A DNA stretch of 64,000 nt from NCBI GenBank assembly GCA_026168455.1, contig CM047429.1, forward strand, positions 3,097,720 through 3,161,719, given 5' to 3'. The notes below the pieces were generated by a model. The model had not been told where the DNA came from. It ran no database searches and was given only the letters and a program-made list of their open reading frames with translations. This document shows, piece after piece, positions 3,524 to 53,793 of the stretch. A program made the position numbers and the translations under genes. The stretch's first letter is position 1. Each line of letters begins with the position of its first letter. The stretch comes from Theocolax elegans. Its lineage: Eukaryota > Arthropoda > Insecta > Hymenoptera > Cerocephalidae.

Positions 3524-3693
3524 TATTGAAAATAAATACGTAATTTTGTTACGTAACAAAAGCACGTACCAAAATTACGTACCAAAAGTACGTATTATTA
3601 CATGCTAAATTCGAACATTTTGTTACGTACATATTGGCGCGTAGATTTGGCACGTCATTTTATTACGTACTTTTGGTACATAACTTTCCTTTT

Positions 3694-3830
3694 CTTTTTT
3701 TTTTGCTTAACGTCGCTCTCACACTGATGCGTATCATCAGCGACCACAGAGGTATGTGCGATATCTTTTGTAAAAGCATATTTATTGAAAATACACTAAT
3801 CAATCGGCAGACACAGTAAGCGCACGAGCC
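3694..3830 (-). mobile_element. SINE fragment inside the foldback element
   Basis: On the minus strand this matches the body of the SINE at 58.9-59.1 kb: AGCGACGTTAA plus A-tail (here a T-run at 3694-3707), preceded by a segment around ACCTCT, a GCTTTTACAAA-like stretch and TGTATTTTCAA. The tRNA-like head is missing, so it is truncated. Confidence 0.6.
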
Positions 3831-3899
3831 GGCATCTCCGGATTAAGCTTTACGGACCAAGCGTAACAGTTAAAAGATGTTTTTTTTATATTTTTATTG

Positions 3900-3977
3900 A
3901 GTTACGTACCTGAAGTACGTAATTGAGTTACGTACCTGCAGTACGTAAATGAGTTACGTACCTAAAGTACGTAATAG
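3900..3977. repeat. 26-bp tandem repeat, three copies
   Basis: Three head-to-tail copies start at 3900, 3926 and 3952, each AGTTACGTACCT followed by a changing trinucleotide and GTACGTAA. Each copy is itself nearly palindromic and resembles the TACGTA words in the arms of the surrounding foldback element. Confidence 0.8.
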
Positions 3978-3989
3978 TATTACATGCAG

Positions 3990-5190
3990 AAGTATCATCA
4001 GTGTTTTTTGCAAACCCAAATAATATTAATAATAATAATAATATAATAAAATAATAAAATAATAAAAGAGTGAGTAGGAAGGGGTAATGGGTGATCGTAC
4101 TAATCTATGATGAAATAAAATACACAGGATTAAAATGTAGGTAAAAATGATATTTATTTAAAATCTAATGCAAAAAGAAGAAATGCCAGCGTTAAAAAAC
4201 CCCAGTTGAAGTGGGGAAAAAGCTTGGTATTTAAATTTAATTTTACTTTAACTAATAATGAAAATAAGTTGATACTAATTATGAATTAATGTACATTAGT
4301 TTACAAGACAATTACGATATTAATATATAAATATATATGTAAGAAGTAACCGTGGACAGTTAATATTAGATGATCATCTATACCTTATATGTACAATATT
4401 AAATGTTCGCACGCTGGGTGACTTACGCGGGCGCAAGTTGCAGTCGTGTAGCGGTCCTTGGGAGCGTAGGTCAGTCCAGGGCTCGACTCGATCACAGTCG
4501 ACTACCTGGATGAAGTGGCGATCTCGAGTCCTCGTGACGTTACGGCGATCGGCCACAAGAGCGGTAATTATCCGCGAAAACGGTTGGCAGTGATCACACT
4601 GTTGCATAAACCGTCAGATAACTATAGCGGCTGCCGCTTATTATCCAAATACGCACGACGAGTCGGACCGCACACACACACTGAAGCGAATACTACACCG
4701 AGCACTAATTTCTCTACACGAACCAAATGCTTATCTCGAGAAAAGAACTGTTTTTAGACACGAGTTGCTAGAGCGGCAACTAGAATCGAACTGACCCATA
4801 ATGCCAAAAGGGTCTTTCGGGATGAGCAGAGGTGACCATGGAGGGGAGATGCGCCATCTCACCCTCGCACCTCTCACGTACTCCTTTTCACCTATACCGA
4901 GCTTGTTGTGACAGGTAATGAGCATGCAAAAGTACGCGCACCGACGTGTCGTTAGTTTTATTGCCCTTAATGATGGCCGTTCGAATCGTGCGACGAAGCA
5001 TCGAGTAAAGCAGTAAAGAAAATCCCGGGCCCGCACGCCGGGGTTTTCCAACCCGGCACGTGGGTCTTGGTTTATTATACGAACAAAAGGGCTCAGTTAA
5101 CGATTTTGCCCCGAACTTGCAAAATAAAAGTCTAATTCGATCGACTATTAATTTGTAATAACGGTGGAGCGTATATTTGACGCGAACAAT
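3990..5190. other. Interior of the foldback element, no gene assigned
   Basis: Short AAT/AATA repeats occur near 4021-4070, followed by AT-rich DNA and then a more GC-balanced block from about 4395 to 5120. Several small open frames overlap on both strands in that block, but none has recognisable motifs, so no gene is called. Confidence 0.5.
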
Positions 5191-5380
5191 CAGTGTGAGA
5201 GCGACGTTAAGCAAAAAAAAAAGAAAAGGCAAGTTATGTACCAAAAGTACGTAATAAAATTACGTGCAAAAACTACGCGCCAATATGTACGTAACAAAAT
5301 GTTCGAATTTAGCATGTAACAATACGTACTTTTGGTACGTGCTTTTGTTACGTAATAAAATTACGTATTTATTTTCAATA

Positions 5381-5660
5381 CCATAAATTTGTTTTTAATT
5401 AAACATTTATATACTTTCCTTAAACTCCATAAAAAGTTTCTGCAATTGAAAGTACTGAAATCAAATTGGTATCGACAAGAATTTTCCATACAATAAATTT
5501 GTTTTTAATTAAACATTTATATACTTTCCTTAAACTCCATAAAAAGTTTCTGCAATTGAAAGTACTGAAATCAAAGTGTTATCGACAAGTATTTTTTACC
5601 ATATCACAAATTTGTTTTTAATTAATAAATTTAATTAAACATTTATATACTTTCCTTAAA
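5381..5660 (+). repeat. ~110-bp unit array, continuation
   Basis: Three units start their AAACATTTATATACTTTCC landmark at 5401, 5511 and 5637. The first spacing is 110 bp; the second is longer by a 16-bp internal duplication. Between landmarks the copies are nearly identical, much closer to each other than the units at 2.1-3.5 kb. Confidence 0.8.
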
Positions 5661-5675
5661 CTCCATGAAAAGTTA

Positions 5676-6280
5676 TATGATAAATGAATTTATTGATCTT
5701 TACAGCCAAAGAAACATTCCTCACATCTCAAGTAAGGCGGACTGTATTAATACCAGCCACTTTAGAAACCTCACAGGATGAGTGTTTGAAAAAAGACTAA
5801 GACAAGCTAAGTCAACAAAAATATAAAATTTAATTGATTGTAGTAGAAAATTAATAAAAACTTAATAAGACGGAAAAAAAAAATTTTGTATTTCGCCCGG
5901 AGTATGCCTGGTGGGCTCATCAGTAGAGTCCAGGCATCTCGTCTCTAGATACAAATGACATATATAAAAATTTTTGAAAACTTTTGAAAACCAGCTCTAT
6001 CCTGACGAGGAAGACATGGGGTATATATGCCCTACCGATAGCAAACTTTAATAAGTGCCACATATTAACAGGTAGCCCCCTAACGCACTTACATAGAACT
6101 AATGTCTTAATCGTCAGAATATTGTTACATAAGGCATATTCGTGATCCAATGCCATATAATTTTAAAATTTGAATTTTCCAACTATTAGAAAAATTCGTG
6201 AATTTATTGCTTTTTTACACTATAAGTTATATGATAAATGAATTTATTGATCTTTACAAGCCAAAGAAACATTCCTCACA
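5676..6280 (-). mobile_element. Hammerhead-bearing retroelement with terminal direct repeats (retrozyme/Penelope-like)
   Basis: This insertion in the 110-bp array is flanked by a perfect 15-bp duplication, CTCCATGAAAAGTTA (5661-5675 and 6281-6295). Its two ends share a direct repeat of about 59 bp (5671-5729 and 6225-6283) that differs by one base. The copy therefore has the form of a unit of about 554 nt plus a partial second unit. A complete hammerhead ribozyme lies inside on the minus strand. Terminal direct repeats plus a hammerhead match what is known of Penelope-like elements and of retrozymes copied from circular RNA. No reverse transcriptase is encoded; the 78-codon open frame on the minus strand overlaps the ribozyme and is not recognised. 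It is probably non-autonomous. Confidence 0.8.
5885..5955 (-). ncRNA. Hammerhead ribozyme, type I topology
   Basis: Read on the minus strand from 5955. Stem III 5' strand UUUGUAU (5955-5949) is followed by the cleavage-site C (5948). Stem I is UAGAG/CUCUA (5947-5943 with 5928-5924). The core CUGAUGA is at 5923-5917. Stem II is GCCC/GGGC (5916-5913 with 5898-5895), then GAA (5894-5892) and stem III 3' strand AUACAAA (5891-5885), fully complementary to its partner. Loop I contains AUGCCUGG and loop II contains CCAGGCAU, an exact 8-nt complement, which gives the loop-loop contact that fast natural hammerheads use. All conserved core bases are present and every stem is perfect. Cleavage is expected between 5948 and 5947. 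Confidence 0.93.
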
Positions 6281-6295
6281 TCTCCATGAAAAGTT

Positions 6296-6535
6296 ACTGC
6301 AATTGAAAGTCCTGAAATCAAATTGATATCGACAAGTATTTTTTTTCATACCATAAATTTGTTTTTAATTAAACATTTATATACTTTCCTTAAACTCCAT
6401 AAAAAGTTTCTGCAATTGAAAGTACTGAAATCAAATTGGTATCGACAAGAATTTTCCATACCATAAATTTGTTTTTATTTAAACATTTATATATTTTCCT
6501 TAAACTCCATAAAAAGTTTCTGCAAAGAAATTAAA
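6296..6535 (+). repeat. ~110-bp unit array, last units
   Basis: The array resumes directly after the second copy of the 15-bp target duplication. Two further AAACATTTATATA landmarks lie at about 6371 and 6481, 110 bp apart. The array fades out after GTTTCTGCAAAG. Confidence 0.75.
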
Positions 6536-6604: not shown

Positions 6605-7328
6605 TATATTAATTAGTTTATTATCGAGTTTTCGTCACCCTCACCAAAAACGTCTCGAGCTGTTCGTCCTTTTAAAAGGTGCGCCTTCTCCATCACTGCA
6701 TCTCTGGAAATGATTCATGAAAACTTGACGACCAAGCCACGCGAACGCATCTGAGTAGGGGGAGAACCCGTTGACTTTAATTTCTGTCGCGGAGTCCAAG
6801 GTCGAAGGTCGATCACCTGATTTAATAGTTTTGGTAACTTAATTGTCTCCAAAATATCCGCAATCAGCTGGTTTTCGGTTTTCATGTTTTTTTCCGGTAA
6901 TCCCGTAATAATCAGCTCAAAGTATTTTTCAGCGCTGGAGATTGTGTAGCATGTACGCCTTTGCTACTTGCTTCAAAGCTGCTAATCCGGTTTTCCAGCT
7001 TGTTGATACACTCATCCAAAACTGAGTATTTCGCTTCAATTTCCTCTTCAATTATGCTGACATTCGCCTTCAAGTTCTTTAGCTCAGTCTTAACCTTGTC
7101 CACTTTACCCTCCACACGGCTCACCACTTTCAACACCGATTTAATGTCGCTTCTCAAGTTGTTTTGTAGGCTCCGTGTAAAGACTTCTACCCACGGTGGC
7201 GGGGCAGCCGCCATCGGTACGTAGTCAACGAGTGTGTCATGCGCGGCCTGATTGGGCTTAGTGGGCGGATATCCACCGTCCGTCGTAATGAGTAAAGGAG
7301 AATGCGTGTAAAAGTGCGGGATATCCAC
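6605..7328 (-). pseudogene. LINE ORF1 relic (C/D/E-type), minus strand
   Basis: Minus-strand coding relic of the same ORF1 found in LINEs C, D and E. From 7328 down it reads through NQAAHDTLVD, MAAAPPPWVEVF and NLRSDIKSV, then a heptad-rich coiled coil with RVEGKVDKVK. After a frame change near 6912-6920 it continues as LIITGLPEKN, VIDLRPWTPR, SRGLVVKFS and AHLLKGRTARDVFGEG. An in-frame TGA interrupts the second part near 6705. The N-terminal zinc motif and all of ORF2 are absent. It is the only LINE piece in the window that lies on the minus strand, and it is not bounded by (GA)n on the plus strand. Confidence 0.8.
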
Positions 7329-7480
7329 CGCTCACCGTAATGAGAGTGAGAGAGAATGTGGATAAAAGTGCAGGATATCTGCCGCCTACCGTAGTGAGTG
7401 AGAGAGAGAGCGCGGATAAAAGCGCAGGATATTCGCCGCCCGCCATCATGAGAGTGAGAAAGAACACGAGTAAAATCGTG
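7267..7480. repeat. ~54-bp minisatellite, four copies
   Basis: GGATAT(T/C) followed by CCACCG-like sequence recurs at 7267, 7319, 7373 and 7427, giving spacings of 52, 54 and 54 bp. Each unit also carries AATGAGAGTGAGAGAGAA and GGATAAAAGTGCA. Because 54 is 18 codons, overlapping frames stay open by chance of periodicity. It lies immediately upstream (minus sense) of the ORF1 relic. Confidence 0.8.
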
Positions 7481-9177: not shown

Positions 9178-9213
9178 GATGGAGCCACCATAAAGTTTTT
9201 AAACTTTTATATC

Positions 9214-9877
9214 TGGAAAATATATAATATCGGTCTCTCCGAACTAAATGCTTTATTTTAGATTAGCAGGCCTATCGTACTCTTTGTCCACTATGGTTGG
9301 TGGAATTTCCCAGAGCACGGCCTTTTAAAATAATTAAAGGCGTTTCGTCCTCGATCTCTAGCTTGGACTCCTCAGTAAGGAACTGGAGATCTTATCTTAG
9401 ACGTCTGTCGCAAGATAAACCGCGACGCCAGCTCGATGTTCTGCGGCTATATATATAGAAAAGAGACGACGATCTCTCCAACGAGTGTAGAGAGGTAGTC
9501 GTCTCCATCTGGTGGTGGGAAATAACTTGCGACTCGGTTTAATACGTCGCACTCTGGCTGGTGGTTTTTCCCAACACCAGATGGAGACGACTATCTCTCT
9601 ACACTCGTTGGAGAGATCGTCGTCTCTTTTCTATATATATAGCCGCAGAACATCGAGCTGGCGTCGCGGTTCATCTTGCGACAGGCGTCTAAGGTAAAAT
9701 CTCCAGTTCCTTACTGAGTAGTCCAAGCTGGAGATCGAGGACGAAACTCCTTTAATTATTTTAAAAGACCATGCTCTGGGAAATTCCACCAACCATAGTG
9801 GACAAAGAGTACGATAGGCCTGCTTTAATCTAAAATAAAGCATTTAGTTCGGAGAGACCGATATTATATAATTTCCA
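9214..9877. mobile_element. Foldback/MITE-like palindrome in the 5' region of LINE A
   Basis: Left arm 9214-9520 and right arm 9569-9877 are inverted copies with few mismatches, joined by a loop of about 48 bp. The ends read TGGAAAATATATAATATCGG and its near-complement. The arms include TCTATATATATAG and a TCGTCGTCTC-like block. No coding region is present; the two small frames here are mirror images of each other. A transcript of this region would form a dsRNA of about 300 bp. Confidence 0.85.
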
Positions 9878-10164
9878 CATATACATATCACCGAACGATA
9901 AATTCATTTTATTTCAAATTTTTAAACTTTTGTTTTGTTATTCGTATATTATTAAGTTTATTGCGCTAATTTCTAAATTTTACTAGATTTTGTGAGCTTT
10001 TATTAGTTTATTTATGTGAACTAATGTAATTTGCGCTTTTAATTTTGTGACGACTTTACTGTATTATTACTATAATATTGCTGATTTGGCACGGCGGATC
10101 GTACTAATGTTTAGATGCATAGAAATTTTAAATCAAAAGTTTGTGCTAGGCATATAGTTAGTTA

Positions 10165-27344: not shown

Positions 27345-30300
27345 AGGTCAACTGGTCAGACGTCATCACCTACTAATAATTCATTCTCCATTTTTCATGT
27401 AAATATTAACCGGCTAAAAACACACTTTTCATCCATTGAATCACTTATTCATCCATTAAATCACGATATCATTTCATTTTCAGAAACTTTTCTCACGGAG
27501 TATGACTCCTCCAGCATGCTAGACCTCCCTGGCTACACATTGCACAGATTGGACCGGGTGGGTAAGGAGGGGGGGGGGGTGTGGCTGCCTATTTCAGGAG
27601 TAATCTTGATATTAGGCTCGTGGCTCACTCTGACCCTGTCTTTTCGAACACCCCGGAATTTTTGATTTTTCAAGTTAATAACAAGGTTAGTTCGCTGCTA
27701 TTTAGTGTCGTCTACAGGAGGCCCACAGCGGCCTACCCATCACAATTTTTTGATACGTTAAATAATTTTTTACATACTTGTGACCAGGTAGTCATCACAG
27801 GCGACTTTAATATTAATATGTGTGGTAGGGACGGGGCGTCCGCCATGCTGGAATCATACATAGCTTCACTTAACCTCTTCCTTATCAAATCGGAACCTAC
27901 TCATCATGCGCATTTCACCAACCATTCATCTCATACCTGGCTGGATTTATTTATAACGCGTAATCCTCCGCCAGATTATTCTTATTTTAAGTCATCAGTT
28001 CCTTTTGCAGCAGGACATGATTTTATTGTATTGACTTTTGACTTTACGAAACCGTTGTTGGCGGTAAAGAAAATCTGGTCACGGAACCTCGCTGCTATTG
28101 ATCCGCCAGAGGCAGCTGCTCTTTTCTCCGTTACTCTAGATCACTTTTTAGCTCACTCTAGCACTGCTACCGAGTCATCATCACCTTCAATATCACACCC
28201 ATCAACCTCGTCGTCTGGCCGTTCACCTTCTTCCTCTCAACTCACGTCAATGCCTTGTTCTTCAACCGCCGCTAATATCAACATCCTGATCTCAAGCTTG
28301 GTTTCAGCTACCCTACATACTTTTGACTCCCTCGCTCCCGCCAAACTCATCACCATCAAAAATATCAACAAATCATGGATCACACCTCATATTAAGCGTA
28401 ATATTAAATCTCGTAACATGGCATATAAAAGATACTTGGCCACGGGCCTGAGCTCAGACTATCAGACGTACAGAGACTTGCGCAGTCTGGTTAGAAACGA
28501 CATAGATTCTAATAAATTCTCGTACTATAACAATAGGATCAATTCAGCCTCTAACGCGGCTAATATGTGGAAGGAGCTCAGGACCATGGGCCTCGTATCT
28601 AAATCGTTTAAATCACCTCTAAGTATTTTTTCACCCGACCAGCTCAATATCCACTATGCTTCCATTTCATCTTCACCCATTCCTTTCACTCATACTCAAT
28701 TTCAATCTCTCATTTCATCAGTAATTTCGCCCTCATCCTACCCATTAATTTCCTTTCACTTTACCCCTACCACATCGCATAAAGTCCTCACTACTATTTC
28801 AAAGGCCACCTCCAAGGCTACGGGGTATGATGGAATCTCTGTTCCAATGTTGAAATTATTATCTACTCAATTAGCTCCGCATCTTACAGATCTGTTCAAC
28901 TTATCTCTCTCAACGGGAGTTTTTCCGAAGCCTTGGACTAGGTCTCTCCTTTTTCCTCTAGCAAAGTCGAATAGGGTGGTATCGCCGTCGGATACTAGGC
29001 CTATTGCAAAGCTCTGCGAAGTCTCCAAGATCTTAGAAAAATTAGTTCACGAACAACTTACAGATTATCTTAATGGTAATAATCTAATTATAGAGAGACA
29101 GGCAGGCTTCCGCCGGGGGCATAGTACCCAGACGGCGTTGATCGGTGTATTGGACGATGTTAGGAGAGCTATAGACAAGCGAATGATCACCATCTTAATT
29201 TTATTCGATTTCTCGAAAGCGTTCGACTCGGTGCCACATGACCTGATGCTCTGTAAATTACGCACTTTGGGTTGCTCGGACACGGTTCTTTCGTGGTTCT
29301 ACTACTATCTGGTTGGACGTTCCCAATCAGTTGTGGATGAGCTGGGGGAGGGTTCGGCCTGGCTTGACACGTCTAGGGGGGTGCCGCAGGGCAGTGTCCT
29401 TGGCCCACTCTTATTTTCTATTTTTATTAATGACCTCCCGCGGGTGTTAAAACATTCCAATCATATGATTTTCGCGGATGACACCCAAATCTATCACTCG
29501 TTCTACCCAACTGATTTTGCTCAGGGTGTACAAAAGATTTCGGAAGACGCTAATGCGATAAACAACTGGGCGAGATCAAATGGTCTAAATTTAAATGTTA
29601 AGAAGACGAAAGTGATGATTTTGGGAAGTCAGGCATTCATCTCGCGCATTGACTTTGATTCTGCCCCGAAGGTTTCAATTGAGAATGAATTACTTAACTA
29701 CGAATCTGATGTCAAATCTTTGGGCATATGGATTACACCCACACTGGACTGGTCTCGTCAGGTCGCATCTGTGTCACAGCGAGTTCACGGAGTTCTTCAC
29801 TCCCTAAGATTTTTTAAAAGAGCGCTTTCACGTCCAAACAGAAAGAGACTCGTCGAAGCTCTAATATTCCCGCATTTCGACTACGCCTGCGCTGTGTATC
29901 ACGATCTGGATGCTACCAGAAATTTGAAACTAAAGCGTCTACTAAATGCGTGCGTTCGTTTTGTATGGGGTATTATTCCATGGCGGGAACATGTGACACC
30001 GTACCGGCTTAAGTTAGGTTGGCTGTCGGTCGAGCTTAGAAGATCCCTTTTTATTGCTTCATGTGCATACAATATCATTTCCCATAATTCCCCTTCCTAT
30101 ATATCTAGTCATTTCATTATTCGTGACGCTTCATTTCCTGCCCGTTCTTCCTCACGTCTCCCTCCTTCATCCCTTTTTTATCTTCCTCCTCGGACTGAGG
30201 CTCTTAACAACTCATTTGTTATCACTGCTTCTCGCCTCATCAACCATCTTCCTTTCACAAACTTTGATCCTCTCCTCTTTAATTCTTTCAAAGCCTCACT

Positions 30301-30391
30301 CCTATCGTATCTTACTGAGCTCGACCGTCAGACTTGGGAAGCGAGAGTGGTAAATGAGGGAATCGTCTGCCCTTCCCTGCCGGATCTTTGA
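27345..30391 (+). CDS. LINE C ORF2: AP-like endonuclease plus reverse transcriptase
   Basis: Continues the ORF1 frame past the UGA with no nearby AUG. The endonuclease has VNINRL, ISFSETFLT, then after the G11 frameshift AAYFRS, VVYRRPTAAYP, TGDFNINM (27797-27820), SHTWLDLF and AAGHDFIVL. The RT has [74 protein letters not shown], the catalytic FADD at 29471-29482, NVKKTKVMILGSQ and IFPHFDYACAVYHDL. The C-terminal ~200 aa match LINEs D, E and G. There is no RNase H domain. It nicks the target and copies the RNA in place. The G11 run needs one more or two fewer G to restore the frame, and homopolymer miscalling is a real possibility. Confidence 0.85.
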
Positions 30392-32532: not shown

Positions 32533-35175
32533 GACAGGACTGGTCGGGTCGGGAACATTAAATCATCTAACACATTCACCATCTTCCATACTAATATTAA
32601 TTGTTTAAAAACTCATTTTTCATCTATCGAAGCAATTGTTTTTCCTGAATCCCACGATGTCATTGCCATCACGGAAATCTTCCTCACTGAAAGCGATTCT
32701 TCTGAAATTCTTCAGTTACCTGGTTATGCTCTTTATCGGTTAGATCGAGTAGGTAAGGAGGGTGGTGGTGTGGCGGCGTATGTTCGGAATGGGTTTGCTG
32801 TGAGCATCATAGCTTACTCCGATCCTGTCTTCTCTAACGCCCCCGAATTTCTTATATTGCGTGTAGTAAACAAAACGGTGGCGTTGGCGTTGGCAGTGGT
32901 GTATCGCAGACCTTCTGCTGCTTACCCTACGGAGTTCTTTGATGCTCTTGCTGACATTCTCCCCAACTATAAACATGTTATTATTACTGGTGATCTCAAC
33001 ATTGATATGTCATCATCTAACGCTGCAGCGAATATGTTGAGGGGGAGTATGACAGCTCTAGGCCTTTTCCTCATTCCATCAGAACCTACGCATCACGCGG
33101 TGACGTCGGCGGGATCATCTCATACTTGGTTGGATCTTTTCCCGGTTCGTGAACCAGTGCCTGATTTTGTTTATAATAAATCTATTTCTCCCTTTGTGGT
33201 GGGGCATGATGCCATTAGCATCTCCCTTATGATTAATAAAACGCAGGATCAAGTCAAGAGGTTCTGGGTTAGGGACTTGGAGAAGATCAACCTTCATCAT
33301 CTTGCTACCACCTTCACTTCATTTCTGGATCAATCATCACATAACGTCCTGGAAACTTCTCAGAAATATGGGTCTGGGCATGAAGTATAATCCTTCGCCA
33401 CTAAAATATTTTACAACTTGTCAACTCAATAGTTACTATGCTTCTGTATCAAATCATTCTTCACCGCTCACTATTCATTCATTCGCATCCATCATATCTA
33501 ACCTTTGTCATTTTCCATCGTCTCCCTCCTTCGATTTCCTACCTGTGTCAGCCAAAAAAGTTCAACGGACTATTGTTAGAGCCTCTTCTAAGGCGTCGGG
33601 CATCGACGGCATATCAGTCAATATGTTGAAACTGTTGGAACCGCAAATTATCCTGCCATTAACAGAACTTTTTAACGGGATACTCTCTGCCGGATGGTTC
33701 CCCGATTGCTGGAAGAGGGTCGTGCTGTTCCCGTTGGCGAAGTCGAGTAGGTTGGAATCGTGTTCGGACATAAGACCAATTGCTAAGCTTTGCGAGATCT
33801 CAAAGGTTTTGGAGAGATTAGTGCTTGATCAGCTGGTTGAGTACCTCGAATCTAATCATTTGTTAATCGACAGGCAAGCGGGCTTCAGAAAGGGCCATAG
33901 TACTCAATCAGCTCTTCTGGGGGTGTTGGATGACGTTAGAAGAGCTATTGACTCCAGAATGATTGCGATCCTAGTTTTATTTGATTTCTCCAAGGCCTTT
34001 GATACAGTCCCACACGATAAGCTCATCCGCAAGTTGGGTGACATCGGCTGTACAGACTTGGTACTTAACTGGTTTTACAGATACCTTATGGGTCGCAAGC
34101 AGGCCGTTGTGGACGAGGTTGGCATGTTATCTGATTGGCTGGAGGTGAATGCTGGTGTGCCTCAGGGCAGTGTTCTGGGTCCGATCTTATTTTCCATTTT
34201 CATTAATGATTTACCTAAGGTTTTAAAGTATAGCAATTATATGTTATTTGCCGATGATGCCCAGGTCTATCATTCGTTCTTTCCATCTGACTTCGACGTT
34301 GGTGTTCAACGCGTATCTCACGATGCGAACGCGATCGCAAACTGGGCATTAGAAAATGGCCTCTCACTGAATGTTAAAAAGACGAAGGTTATGATCCTGG
34401 GCAGTCAGGCTTTTATTTCGCGTATTAACCTGAGCACTGCCCCGAAGGTTAAACTAGGTAATGACTTGCTGGATTACGAGAATGTGGTAAAATCACTGGG
34501 GTTGCTGATCACCCCTACCCTCGACTGGTCTAAGCAGGTCATGTCAATCTCTAGGTGCGTCCACGGAGTTCTGAATTCTCTACGCTATTACAATAAATCA
34601 TTATCGATTAAGCTCCGCAAGAGTCTTGTTGAAACGCTTACTTTTCCCCATTTAGATTATGCGTGCGCAGTATATAATGATGTAGATCAAACTAAAAATA
34701 TAAAGCTTCAAAGATTGTTGAATGCTTGCGTTAGATTTGTGTGGGGCAACATAGCGAGACGTGAACACGTCACCCCGTTTAGAATCGGTTTAAAATGGCT
34801 GTCGATTGAGTCCAGACATTCATATCTCATCGGTTCCCTAGCATTTAATATCATTGCTCACAATTCACCTCATATCTAGCTAACCATTTTACCTTACTTA
34901 ATACCTCCGGCCAAAATCCCCGCTCTTCCTCTCGTTATCCTCCCAAATCGCTCATGTACCTTCCACCACGCACAGAAGCCTTAAATAAATCATTTATCAC
35001 CTCCACCCGCATTTTGAATCAGCTCCCTATCATCAATTTTAACCCATCATGCATCAACGACTTCAAAAATACATTACTTAATCATTTGTCTGGGCTCGAC
35101 CAAGCAGCCTGGTCCTCACGGGTAGTGTCTGAGGGCTTGTTGCCGAGGTCCATCCCTCACCTGGATGCTGCTTAA
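32533..35175 (+). pseudogene. LINE D ORF2: EN-RT with internal deletion and frameshift
   Basis: Same frame as ORF1. The EN is complete: TNINCLKTHF, ITEIFLTE, GKEGGGVAAYVR, VVYRRPSAAYP, TGDLNIDM, SHTWLDLFPV, VGHDAISI. Near 33340 about 115 residues that LINEs C and E have here are missing and the frame changes. The RT then runs open to 34879: [72 protein letters not shown] and the FADD at about 34248-34259. A one-base loss near 34871 shifts the C-terminus, which resumes at MYLPPRTEALN (34954) and ends at 35175. EN and RT are individually nearly complete but no longer joined. Confidence 0.85.
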
Positions 35176-50907: not shown

Positions 50908-53793
50908 GACAGGAGTGGTCGTGCCAATAAAAATAACAAACACTTTTCATCTAACTCATTTTCCATCTCTCATACTAACATAAATCGTCTAAAAACTCAT
51001 TTTGCAGCCATTGAAGCTTTAATCTATCCGAGATCTTTCGATGTCATCGCATTAACCGAAACCTTCCTTACTGAACATGATTCCTCTGATATTTTTGAAT
51101 TACCTGGTTATGTATTACACAGATTGGATCGTGTAGGTAGGGGAGGGGGTGGAGTTGCGGCGTACATACGTGAGGAGTATAAGGTTAGCGTTGTTGCAAA
51201 CTCGGATCCGGTTTTTTCTAACAAACCGGAATTCTTAATCTTACGCTTGGTGAGTGGCTCGTTAACGACTCTTCTAGCGGTGGTCTATCGTAGACCAACA
51301 GCCGCCTATCCAAGCGAATTTTTTGAGGTTCTTTCTGATATTTTACCAGATTGCAACAGCGTTATCGTCACGGGTGATTTCAACATGGATATGAACTCAA
51401 ACAGTGCAGCTGCTAACATGATGAAGTCAAATCTGATGGCATCGGGCCTTTCGCTCATACCATCGGAGCCGACCCATCATGCAGCGACATCGAACGGTTT
51501 CTCTCACACTTGGTTAGACCTCTTCCTGATTCGTGAGCCGGTGCTAAATTTCAAATATCTCAAATCTACTGCTCCCTTCGCAGCCGGCCACAACTCCATT
51601 AGTCTGGAATTAATTGTACCGAGTAATCAAAAAGTAGGGGAGAGGATGTTTTGGAGGAGAAATCTGGAAGAGGTAAACTTACAGACTCTCGCCACCACAT
51701 TCACATCCTTCATGAACAACCCATTAGCTTCTGCCTGGCCCGACCAACCCCTTTCCTCATATTCTAACTCATTCGAAATCATCTCCTCTTTATTAACAAA
51801 CATTAACCAATCAACCATAAATTCATTTAATGCTCTGGCACCATTGAAATTCATCACCATTAAAAATTCACAAAAACCATGAGTCACACGCGAAATAAAA
51901 TTGTCCATTAGAGAAAGAAATAATGCTTTTGAGAGGTTCCGTATTTCAAGAGATCCACTGGATTATAGAAACTATAAGGAGCTTAGAAATAGTGTATCAA
52001 ATTCGTTAAATTCCAGTAAATTTAAGTTTCTTGCAAATAAATTAGGTGTAAATAAAGATCCTGCTAGCTCCTGGAATTCTCTTCGGAATATGGGATTTTG
52101 CTCAGGGGCTCATACTTCTCCATTAAAAGTTTTTTCACCTCATCAACTCAATACCCATTATGCCTCCATCTGAAACCGATCACCCCCTCTCTCAGTTCAG
52201 TCATTAGCATCCATCATTTCTAACACTTGCTCATTGTCATCCTCATCTCTTTCTTTTTCTTTCTCTGTAGTAACGGCCAAAGTGGTGAGCCATGCAATAC
52301 TGAAATCTACCTCTAAAGCAGTCGGTATTGACGGAATCTCCTTAAAGATGCTCAGACTTTTAGAGCCACAATTAATCTTTCCGCTTGTCGAAGTATATAA
52401 CAATATGTTAATTGCGGGTTTTTTTCCCGACTGCTGGAAGAGGGTGGTTTTATTTCCCTTGGCTAAGTCAAGTAAAATTGTAACGTGTGCGGATACCAGG
52501 CCAATTGCTCAGTTATGCGAATTATCTAAAGTACTCGAGCGCATTGTACATCTACAACTCTCTAATTACTTAGAGACAAATAATTTATTGACAGAGAGAC
52601 AGGCAGGCTTTCGTAAAGACCATAGCACTCAGACAGCATTGTTGGGGGTCCTGGATGATGTCAGAAGAGCCATTGACTCTCGGAAGATTACGATTCATAT
52701 GCTGTTTGACTTCTCCAAGGCCTTCGATACTGTGCCTCATGATGTGCTTATTACCAAATTAAGTAATATTGGTTGTTCAGAAAATGTATTAAATTGGTTC
52801 TACAGGTATCTGGTAGGTCGCTCTCAGACGGTGGAGGGTGAGGGTGGTGAACTCTCCGATTGGTTGAATATAAATACGTGTGTACCTCAGGGCAGTGTAC
52901 TTGGTCCGATTTTATTTTCCATTTTTATTAATGATTTACCGAATGTATTGAAATATAGCAAATGTATGTTGTTCGCGGATGATGCCCAGGTTTATTCGTC
53001 GTTTTATCCGGCGGAGATCGAAACAGGAGTTCAGCAAATCTCGGAAGATGCAAATGCGATTGTTAAAATAGGGAATGAATATTTGCTGTATGAAAGTGAG
53101 GTTAAGTCTCTGGGACTGTTCATTTCGCCCACATTGGATTGGTCAAAACAGGTTTTAGCACTTTCTAAACGGGTTCGTGGAGTCCTTCACTCCTTAAGAT
53201 ATTATAGAAGAACTCTATCGCGTAAACTAAGGAAAAACCTGGTGGAGGCGCTCATTTTCCCGCATTTTGATTATGCGTGTGCGGTTTATGACGACATTGA
53301 TCAAACCAAAAATCTAAAGTTATAGAGATTACTAAATGCGTGCGTAAGATTTGTGAGGGGCGATCTACGTAGATATGATCATGTGACGCCCCATAGGCTT
53401 GATCTAAAATGGCTGTCGGTTGAGTCCAGACGCTCCTCCCTCATCGGATCATTAGCATACAATATCATAATACATAACTCACCATCATACCTCGCAGTTC
53501 ATTTCTCATTATTATATAACCCAGTCACCAATCCTCGCACCTCATCACGCCATCCGCCTAAAGCACTTACATACTTACCACCTCGTACAGAAGCCTTAAA
53601 TAAATCATTCGTCATTACATCATCCCGCATAGTAAACTCCCTGCTTATCGACATCTTTATGAATTCCTCTCTAAACCATTTCAAACGTTCCCTTTTCGAT
53701 CATCTGTTTGGACTCGACCAGGCAGCTTGGTCCGACCGGGTAAACAACGAGCGAATAGTATTGCGGTCCATCCCTCGTTTCCAAGCGGAGTAG
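50908..53793 (+). pseudogene. LINE E ORF2: EN-RT (stops, deletion)
   Basis: In frame with ORF1: TNINRLKTHF, LTETFLTEHD, RGGGGVAAYIREE, VVYRRPTAAYP, TGDFNMDM, SHTWLDLFLI, AAGHNSISLE. TGA at about 51880 replaces a Trp codon of the KPW motif, and another TGA lies at 52171. [72 protein letters not shown] and FADD at about 52975-52986. Directly after SEDANAI about 40 residues present in C and D (the KKTKVMILGS block) are missing. A TAG at 53323 precedes the C-terminal segment 53353-53793. Confidence 0.83.

Follow-up and report, generated by a model that had tools for sequence, protein, structure and literature searches.

What moves small, self-cleaving, non-coding elements through animal genomes? 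The mover of animal retrozymes is an open question, for which long interspersed nuclear elements (LINEs) or Penelope-like elements have been named (PMC7229834). The question is raised at close range by a hammerhead ribozyme on the minus strand at positions 5885-5955 of a 64,000-nucleotide stretch of the Theocolax elegans genome (assembly GCA_026168455.1, contig CM047429.1, positions 3,097,720 to 3,161,719 of the forward strand; hereafter the window). We consider it probable, judging from sequence comparison, that this is a type III hammerhead and that the non-coding, retrozyme-type element around it, ~550 bp long, is a young copy mobilised in trans by resident Penelope-like elements, which carry reverse transcriptase (RT) and GIY-YIG domains. 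The ends of the inserts offer a concrete, testable answer on the mover: internal starts recur at two sites, and each target strand uses one of them.

Read directly on the minus strand, all core bases of the ribozyme are present: CUGAUGA at 5923-5917, GAA at 5894-5892 followed by A15.1, and C17 at 5948, with cleavage predicted between 5948 and 5947 at a UH site. Stem III comprises 7 bp (5955-5949 with 5891-5885), stem I 5 bp (5947-5943 with 5928-5924), and stem II 4 bp (5916-5913 with 5898-5895), all of them perfect, and a segment of loop I is the exact complement of a segment of loop II over 8 nt.

5885 to 5955, minus strand: type III hammerhead ribozyme (core, stems, Rfam match, 0 of 300 shuffles)
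5930 to 5937, minus strand: loop I segment AUGCCUGG, exact 8-nt complement of the loop II segment (direct reading)
5904 to 5911, minus strand: loop II segment CCAGGCAU, exact 8-nt complement of the loop I segment (direct reading)

The first-pass annotation of this DNA had claimed this complete set of parts and had called a chance match very unlikely, and both statements hold. A descriptor (core, GAAA, UH site, and a minimum of 4 bp in each of the three stems) matches the window once, at this site, and matches none of 300 dinucleotide-shuffled windows. The accompanying label of a type I ribozyme is wrong. Because the free ends lie in stem III, with stems I and II closed by loops, the ribozyme is of type III, and the Rfam model RF00008 (Hammerhead_3) concurs, with 36.6 bits (E 5.4e-6) on 1.1 kb around the site. 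At E 10, the same model has matches in 7 of 14 control genomes, none of them above the gathering cut-off. R1, a covariance model that we made from nine hammerhead sequences, gives 70.9 bits, a score that is partly circular because the 5885-5955 sequence is one of the nine.

The hammerhead is carried by an insert of a repeat family that we call B, arranged as follows.

5676 to 6281, minus sense: family B insert of 606 bp, a complete non-coding unit of 555 bp and part of another (unit comparison; longest frame 78 aa)
5661 to 5675, plus strand: target-site duplication on the 3' side of the element, CTCCATGAAAAGTTA, exact over 15 bp
6282 to 6296, plus strand: target-site duplication on the 5' side, the same 15 bp, its ends blurred by short letters common to the element
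6224 to 6284, minus strand: first terminal-redundancy copy, 98.4% identical to 5670-5729 over 61 positions
5670 to 5729, minus strand: second terminal-redundancy copy, which stops at 3' end site 1, the site used by the window copy
6223 to 6232, minus strand: 3' end site 1 of the first unit (near unit position 58), where reverse transcription putatively starts internally (insert ends recur at unit 53-66)
6155 to 6165, minus strand: 3' end site 2 (unit 120-130), unused by the window copy and used by many others (insert ends)
6172 to 6197, minus strand: possible hairpin of 9 bp that would separate end sites 1 and 2, weakly supported (fold z-score -1.46, with 21 of 200 shuffles equally good)
5369 to 5660, plus strand: host DNA, left part of a ~110-bp repeat array (repeat comparison)
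6297 to 6520, plus strand: host DNA, right part of the same array (repeat comparison)

The copy is inserted within the ~110-bp repeat array, and it has one hammerhead and a terminal redundancy of ~60 bp that contains none. Its unit has a GC content of 32% and no frame longer than 78 aa. It differs from the unit at another locus, L019, by four substitutions and one extra base (99.1% identity), and from the per-position majority of family B by three substitutions besides indels (insertions uncounted). Twenty positions of the unit score as missing in most copies; about 10 bp, absent from 3/4 aligned copies and present in L019, are truly missing, and the rest reflects ambiguous gap placement in a 10-bp tandem repeat. 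By its sequence, the window insert is a young copy. The first-pass annotation had read the intact pairing as a sign of recent copying or selection. Copying is borne out by the identity to L019 and the exact 15-bp duplication; selection is not, and conservation of the hammerhead within the family was rejected as a mark of it, the 71 nt of the ribozyme ranking 240 of 484. The surrounding element, its relatives, and the way it inserted had escaped the first-pass annotation.

The evidence on the mover comes from the other copies. Across the genome (658 Mb in 1277 contigs), family B has at least 128 matches, a lower bound for which 37 of 928 candidates were scored, with a unit length of ~544-555 bp and many copies 90-99% identical. 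The 30 best loci, chosen by match to a 609-base query, which favours long copies, hold 58 hammerheads; the core and GAAA are kept in 49 and both exact loop octamers in 42. These loci merge into 25 pieces that yield 25 complete inserts, two further inserts being cut by piece ends. Seventeen of the 25 are head-to-head with their 3' ends outward, and 14 of these inverted inserts have one end at unit 50-68 and the other at unit 118-132, sites that lie ~67 nt apart. In none of the 17 do both ends fall at one site. Two of the 14 conforming inserts have common flanks, which leaves 13 independent cases. The eight one-way inserts end at site 1 in three cases (window copy included), at site 2 in four (two with common flanks), and at unit 35 in one. 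Target duplications of at least 9 bp flank 17 of the 25 inserts versus 22 of 596 mismatched flank pairs; they are 9-17 bp long, and the flanks are 78% AT.

The family B arms also bear on the form of the template. Among 29 arms (hand-picked; multi-piece arms and those of L020-L022, L028, L044, and L045 left out), 22 exceed the length possible from a linear monomer cut at 5948/5947, and none starts within 10 nt of the cleavage site. Therefore, most templates were probably circular or uncut multimers. Two of the family B loci, L040 (C3:42268720-42269870, 1151 bp in all) and L044 (C3:41939781-41942019, 2239 bp in all), have the same flanks and duplication and differ in the number of units in the minus arm, as a duplicated locus with changed unit number.

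A matching arrangement of ends is found in the resident Penelope-like elements. The genome contains 98 GIY-YIG matches, many as minus/plus pairs 1-5 kb apart, and all four Penelope-like proteins scanned combine RVT_1 with GIY-YIG. Lineage 1 is represented by five frames, 814-884 aa long and 98-100% alike, and hence it moved recently. Measured on a reference 3' region, its inserts stop either at 266-278, lacking a tail, or at 298, with a tail of ~20-32 nt. In a survey of 12 loci (L058-L061 without a match; L065 and L066 without two outer ends), all six inverted lineage 1 inserts with both ends visible (L052, L053, L063, L064, L067, and L069) have one end of each kind. The same pattern is seen by eye, with a duplication, in the lineage 2 insert L068, so that it holds for seven of seven inverted inserts. 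Because retrozyme inserts and resident Penelope-like inserts have the same two-site end pattern, we infer that the former were probably mobilised by the machinery of the latter; the comparison of ends covers families A (described below) and B and the Penelope-like elements. Lineage 1 has a CTGATGA...GAAA core of its own in six of six long loci. R1 reaches 13.8 bits at one Penelope-like locus (L052), and Rfam at E 5 gives no hammerhead in loci L063-L069. Among named homologues, those nearest to the resident Penelope-like proteins and RTs come from Leptopilina heterotoma and Trichogramma, in keeping with a wasp genome.

Family A has units of ~480-513 bp (37% GC) that carry a type III hammerhead and have no DNA match to the window insert. 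It was recovered by a genome search with RF00008 of low yield (68 of 79098 candidates scored; the window's own copy missed), in which all 16 matches belong to family A, several of them in one insert, and none exceeds the gathering cut-off. It occurs as arrays on small contigs (L002, L012, and L014) and as dispersed inserts with target duplications of ~10-12 bp (by eye). Four of five independent inverted inserts (L003, L007, L008, and L009) have ends near units 292 and 330. L004, with both ends near 290, was dropped because it and L003 form a tandem duplication whose breakpoint falls at that place, and L011, which runs off its locus, is uncounted. No structured element was found between the family A end sites (fold z -0.09). 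In its commonest form, the complementarity between loops I and II of this family spans 12 nt. When nine hammerheads (eight A, one B) are aligned jointly, 96.9% of cells pair; in 10 of 25 pairs, among them four of the eight loop-loop pairs, both bases differ between A and B and still pair, with 0-2 such pairs in slid controls. On the antisense strand of true family A copies, R1 scores 14-25 bits. The L003/L004 locus (C4:79.79 Mb) is a ~2-kb tandem duplication whose breakpoint lies at family A end site 1 and adjoins a short stretch that resembles, by eye, the 3' end of a third family.

This third family, C, is present in the window itself.

9208 to 9883, both arms: family C element, two head-to-head arms 95% alike with 3' sides outward (arm comparison)
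9337 to 9407, minus strand: putative family C hammerhead, type III, core CUGAGGA intact (RF00008 26.3 bits, E 0.0037; R1 19.5 bits)
9682 to 9752, plus strand: putative family C hammerhead, type III, core CUGAGUA broken (RF00008 20.5 bits, E 0.16; R1 19.8 bits)

In the minus-strand hammerhead, stem III and the loop pairing each contain a single mismatch, and the plus-strand one has an exact 8-nt loop complement, AUCUCCAG/CUGGAGAU. R1 scores of 19-20 bits prove nothing alone, given those of antisense family A copies. In the Rfam scan, a microRNA family reaches E 0.0075 on the same palindrome versus E 0.0037 for the hammerhead, and the descriptor misses both hammerheads, their stem III being decayed. 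The likely assignment draws on core, stems, and loop complement together. The element looks old and decayed. Families A, B, and C appear to be unrelated and of the same design, a type III hammerhead with complementarity of 8-12 nt between loops I and II. A match of RF00163 at L001 (32.4 bits) was rejected as a type I ribozyme: its downstream DNA is common with family C, the likeness begins inside the hammerhead, and L001 is read as a truncated family C relative. Relatives of the family C 3' part are found at L001 and at L067:6692-6812.

How, then, could such inserts arise? A multimeric transcript would cut itself at the hammerhead into RNA of unit length, and the units would be closed to circles. 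A Penelope-like enzyme acting in trans would then break AT-rich DNA, and both strands would prime reverse transcription, each starting at a different internal site of the circular or multimeric RNA. The expected product is a set of head-to-head arms of one to several units, to which later unequal exchange may add units. From the insert ends of B, A, and the resident Penelope-like elements, we read two internal start sites bounding a tail, and the use of both target strands. These are also features of the anole PAc protein, which in vitro cuts AT-rich DNA on both strands, extends both, and begins synthesis from two internal sites that delimit a genomic "tail" (PMC11167929). By this analogy, the retrozyme inserts look like the record of a PAc-like reaction on another RNA. 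Partial tandem copies and a hammerhead within the element are further likenesses; PAc is autonomous, codes for RT and GIY-YIG, and has a hammerhead of another form (PMC11167929).

The helix of 8-12 nt between loops I and II could be a tertiary contact that activates cleavage, or a switch that keeps the finished circle uncut. The second role is considered because a hairpin on the loop letters is more stable than the nested hammerhead. In a plant satellite RNA, loop pairing of this kind is known to be inhibitory. Taken further, and much more tentatively, animal retrozymes might be the short interspersed nuclear elements ("SINEs") of Penelope-like elements: a dimeric enzyme would read one circular hammerhead RNA from both ends of the broken target, at two fixed starts, writing head-to-head multimers, and type III hammerheads with a long helix, which a single genome has in three or more unrelated families, would use this helix as a lock that keeps the circle closed.

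A number of observations weigh against a ribozyme element moved by Penelope-like machinery. The RF00008 score lies below the Rfam gathering cut-off of 48.5 (a curation threshold rather than a structural feature), and an Rfam scan of the window at that cut-off returns no match. The first-pass annotation had named a covariance search as a check, and a score below threshold as a refutation; the score is indeed below the cut-off, yet E is 5.4e-6, and the short loops of the consensus, compared with 14 nt in both loops here, may explain the low value. The pseudoknot-free minimum-energy fold of 5885-5955 is not a hammerhead (-22.2 versus -9.9 kcal/mol for the nested hammerhead), nor is that of family A (-36.3 versus -13.9), and a full 12-bp loop-loop helix would be hardly compatible with closed stems. 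The covariation between A and B is essentially one comparison of two families, with the structure drawn from the same sequences. Within family B, the hammerhead is conserved no better than the unit at large.

On the side of the mover, 3 of the 17 inverted B inserts have one atypical end (units 3, 22, and 23), 8 of the 25 B inserts lack a duplication of 9 bp, and one of the five family A inserts (L013, with ends at 334 and 279) does not conform. Plant retrozymes share boxes with Ty3-gypsy elements (PMC4918200), whereas families A-C share none with the Penelope-like stretches examined: what A, B, and C have in common with the Penelope-like 3' regions amounts to weak AT-rich matches (17 stretches, some from the same insert). 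A recognition sequence shared by the retrozymes and their Penelope-like partner was sought in these 17 stretches and not found. The PAc study reports start sites that do not differ between strands and gives no pattern of one site per strand such as is seen here, and PAc hammerhead mutants still inserted in vitro (PMC11167929).

The same retrozyme might instead have been moved by LINEs, by target-primed reverse transcription with twin priming in the manner of L1, which would give inverted arms and duplications of 9-17 bp. LINEs are among the candidates named in PMC7229834. Duplications of this length and variable 5' ends are compatible with such machinery, and RVT_1 frames occur in the window, one of them with an endonuclease match that exceeds the cut-off. 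Twin priming would set the second arm at a random position inside a single RNA. In 14 of the 17 inverted B inserts, however, each of two fixed sites holds one end, as in the resident Penelope-like elements, and no evident poly(A) tail is seen in the B insert flanks inspected; we therefore regard movement by LINEs as unlikely. Ordinary satellite DNA, in which the hammerhead would be a relic and copies would multiply through unequal exchange and through DNA circles that reinsert, is more doubtful still. It would accommodate the family A arrays on small contigs and a hammerhead conserved no better than its unit, and multi-unit arms may partly stem from unequal exchange, as at L040/L044. It fits poorly with inserts that are dispersed on several chromosomes, are flanked by target duplications, and have 3' ends that recur and 5' ends that vary, which are marks of retrotransposition, and with a ribozyme design kept by unrelated families.

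Two further explanations concern the origin of the ribozyme rather than its spread. An endogenised circular RNA resembling hepatitis delta virus (HDV) or a viroid would account for the motif, some animal members having type III hammerheads with loop-loop pseudoknots. The longest frame of the unit is 78 aa (no further search aimed at a delta antigen was made), the unit is 480-555 nt long rather than 1500-1700, and the core is absent on the other strand, where R1 gives a weak echo of 15.5 bits, making such an origin highly improbable. We give least credence to the idea that a host gene at this locus acquired the hammerhead as a self-cleaving regulatory element: mammalian mRNAs are known to contain hammerheads (PMC2837043), whereas this one lies in a repeat array, within a mobile insert that recurs genome-wide.

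With retrotransposition by Penelope-like elements as the preferred explanation, the element can be set beside known systems. Metazoan non-LTR retrozymes (those without long terminal repeats, LTRs) have type I hammerheads and units of ~170-400 nt, and Penelope-like elements have been proposed as their strong candidate mobiliser (PMC7229834, Cervera and de la Pena 2020). The families described here resemble them in their small non-coding units with one hammerhead, tandem and dispersed copies, absence of LTRs, non-autonomy, GC content below 50%, and target duplications of more than 4 bp, and differ in having type III hammerheads with 8-12 nt of loop-loop complementarity and longer units, ~544-555 (B) and 480-513 (A). 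We therefore file the element as a variant of metazoan non-LTR retrozymes, not as a plain member. Plant LTR retrozymes (PMC4918200) are likewise non-autonomous, with a type III hammerhead and a multimer or circle as template. They carry a hammerhead in both LTRs, duplications of 4 bp, and a GC content above 55%, in contrast to duplications of 9-17 bp, 32-37% GC, and no hammerhead-bearing LTR pair here, and plant type III loops make conserved non-Watson-Crick contacts instead of a Watson-Crick loop complement.

The nearest ribozymes found are the type III motifs of dipterans and termites (PMC7936874). In that work, type III hammerheads with Watson-Crick pairing between loops I and II are described from HDV-like RNAs and also from termites, Drosophila pseudoobscura, and other dipterans; the toad and termite forms have a helix I with an internal loop and an extra hairpin, and ~4 nt of pairing, and the termite motifs are isolated. 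The search of hymenopterans in PMC7936874 found no type III hammerhead. A review (PMC7761336) mentions "elements with type III HHRs" (hammerhead ribozymes) in insects, citing a 2010 paper and work in preparation; its passages on them give neither element structure, retrozyme assignment, nor mobilising machinery. The pDo500 satellite of Dolichopoda cave crickets (PMC2837043) is also an insect repeat of ~500 bp with a self-cleaving hammerhead, which at 49 nt would be too short for the complementary loops of 8-12 nt found here. Type III hammerheads in insects as such are thus already in print (PMC7761336, PMC7936874). Our literature search, which covered titles and the openings of abstracts and left out most subscription journals and all bioRxiv preprints, gave no type III retrozymes in animals and no such insert signature for retrozymes. 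Type III hammerheads, described mostly from plants and subviral RNAs, are now placed in mobile retrozyme-type elements of an insect genome.

Other repeats and frames are present in the window. Reverse-transcriptase frames lie at 27581-30391, 33302-34879, and 52234-53325; the RVT_1 frame with the endonuclease match above cut-off is 936 aa long, and among its named relatives the nearest comes from Trichogramma brassicae. A TACGTA-rich repeat of 13 bp forms arrays at 3524-4001 and 5189-5395 that are partly inverted to each other (arms of 179 nt, 92%), and a 52-54 bp tandem repeat with GGATAT motifs occupies 7267-7475.
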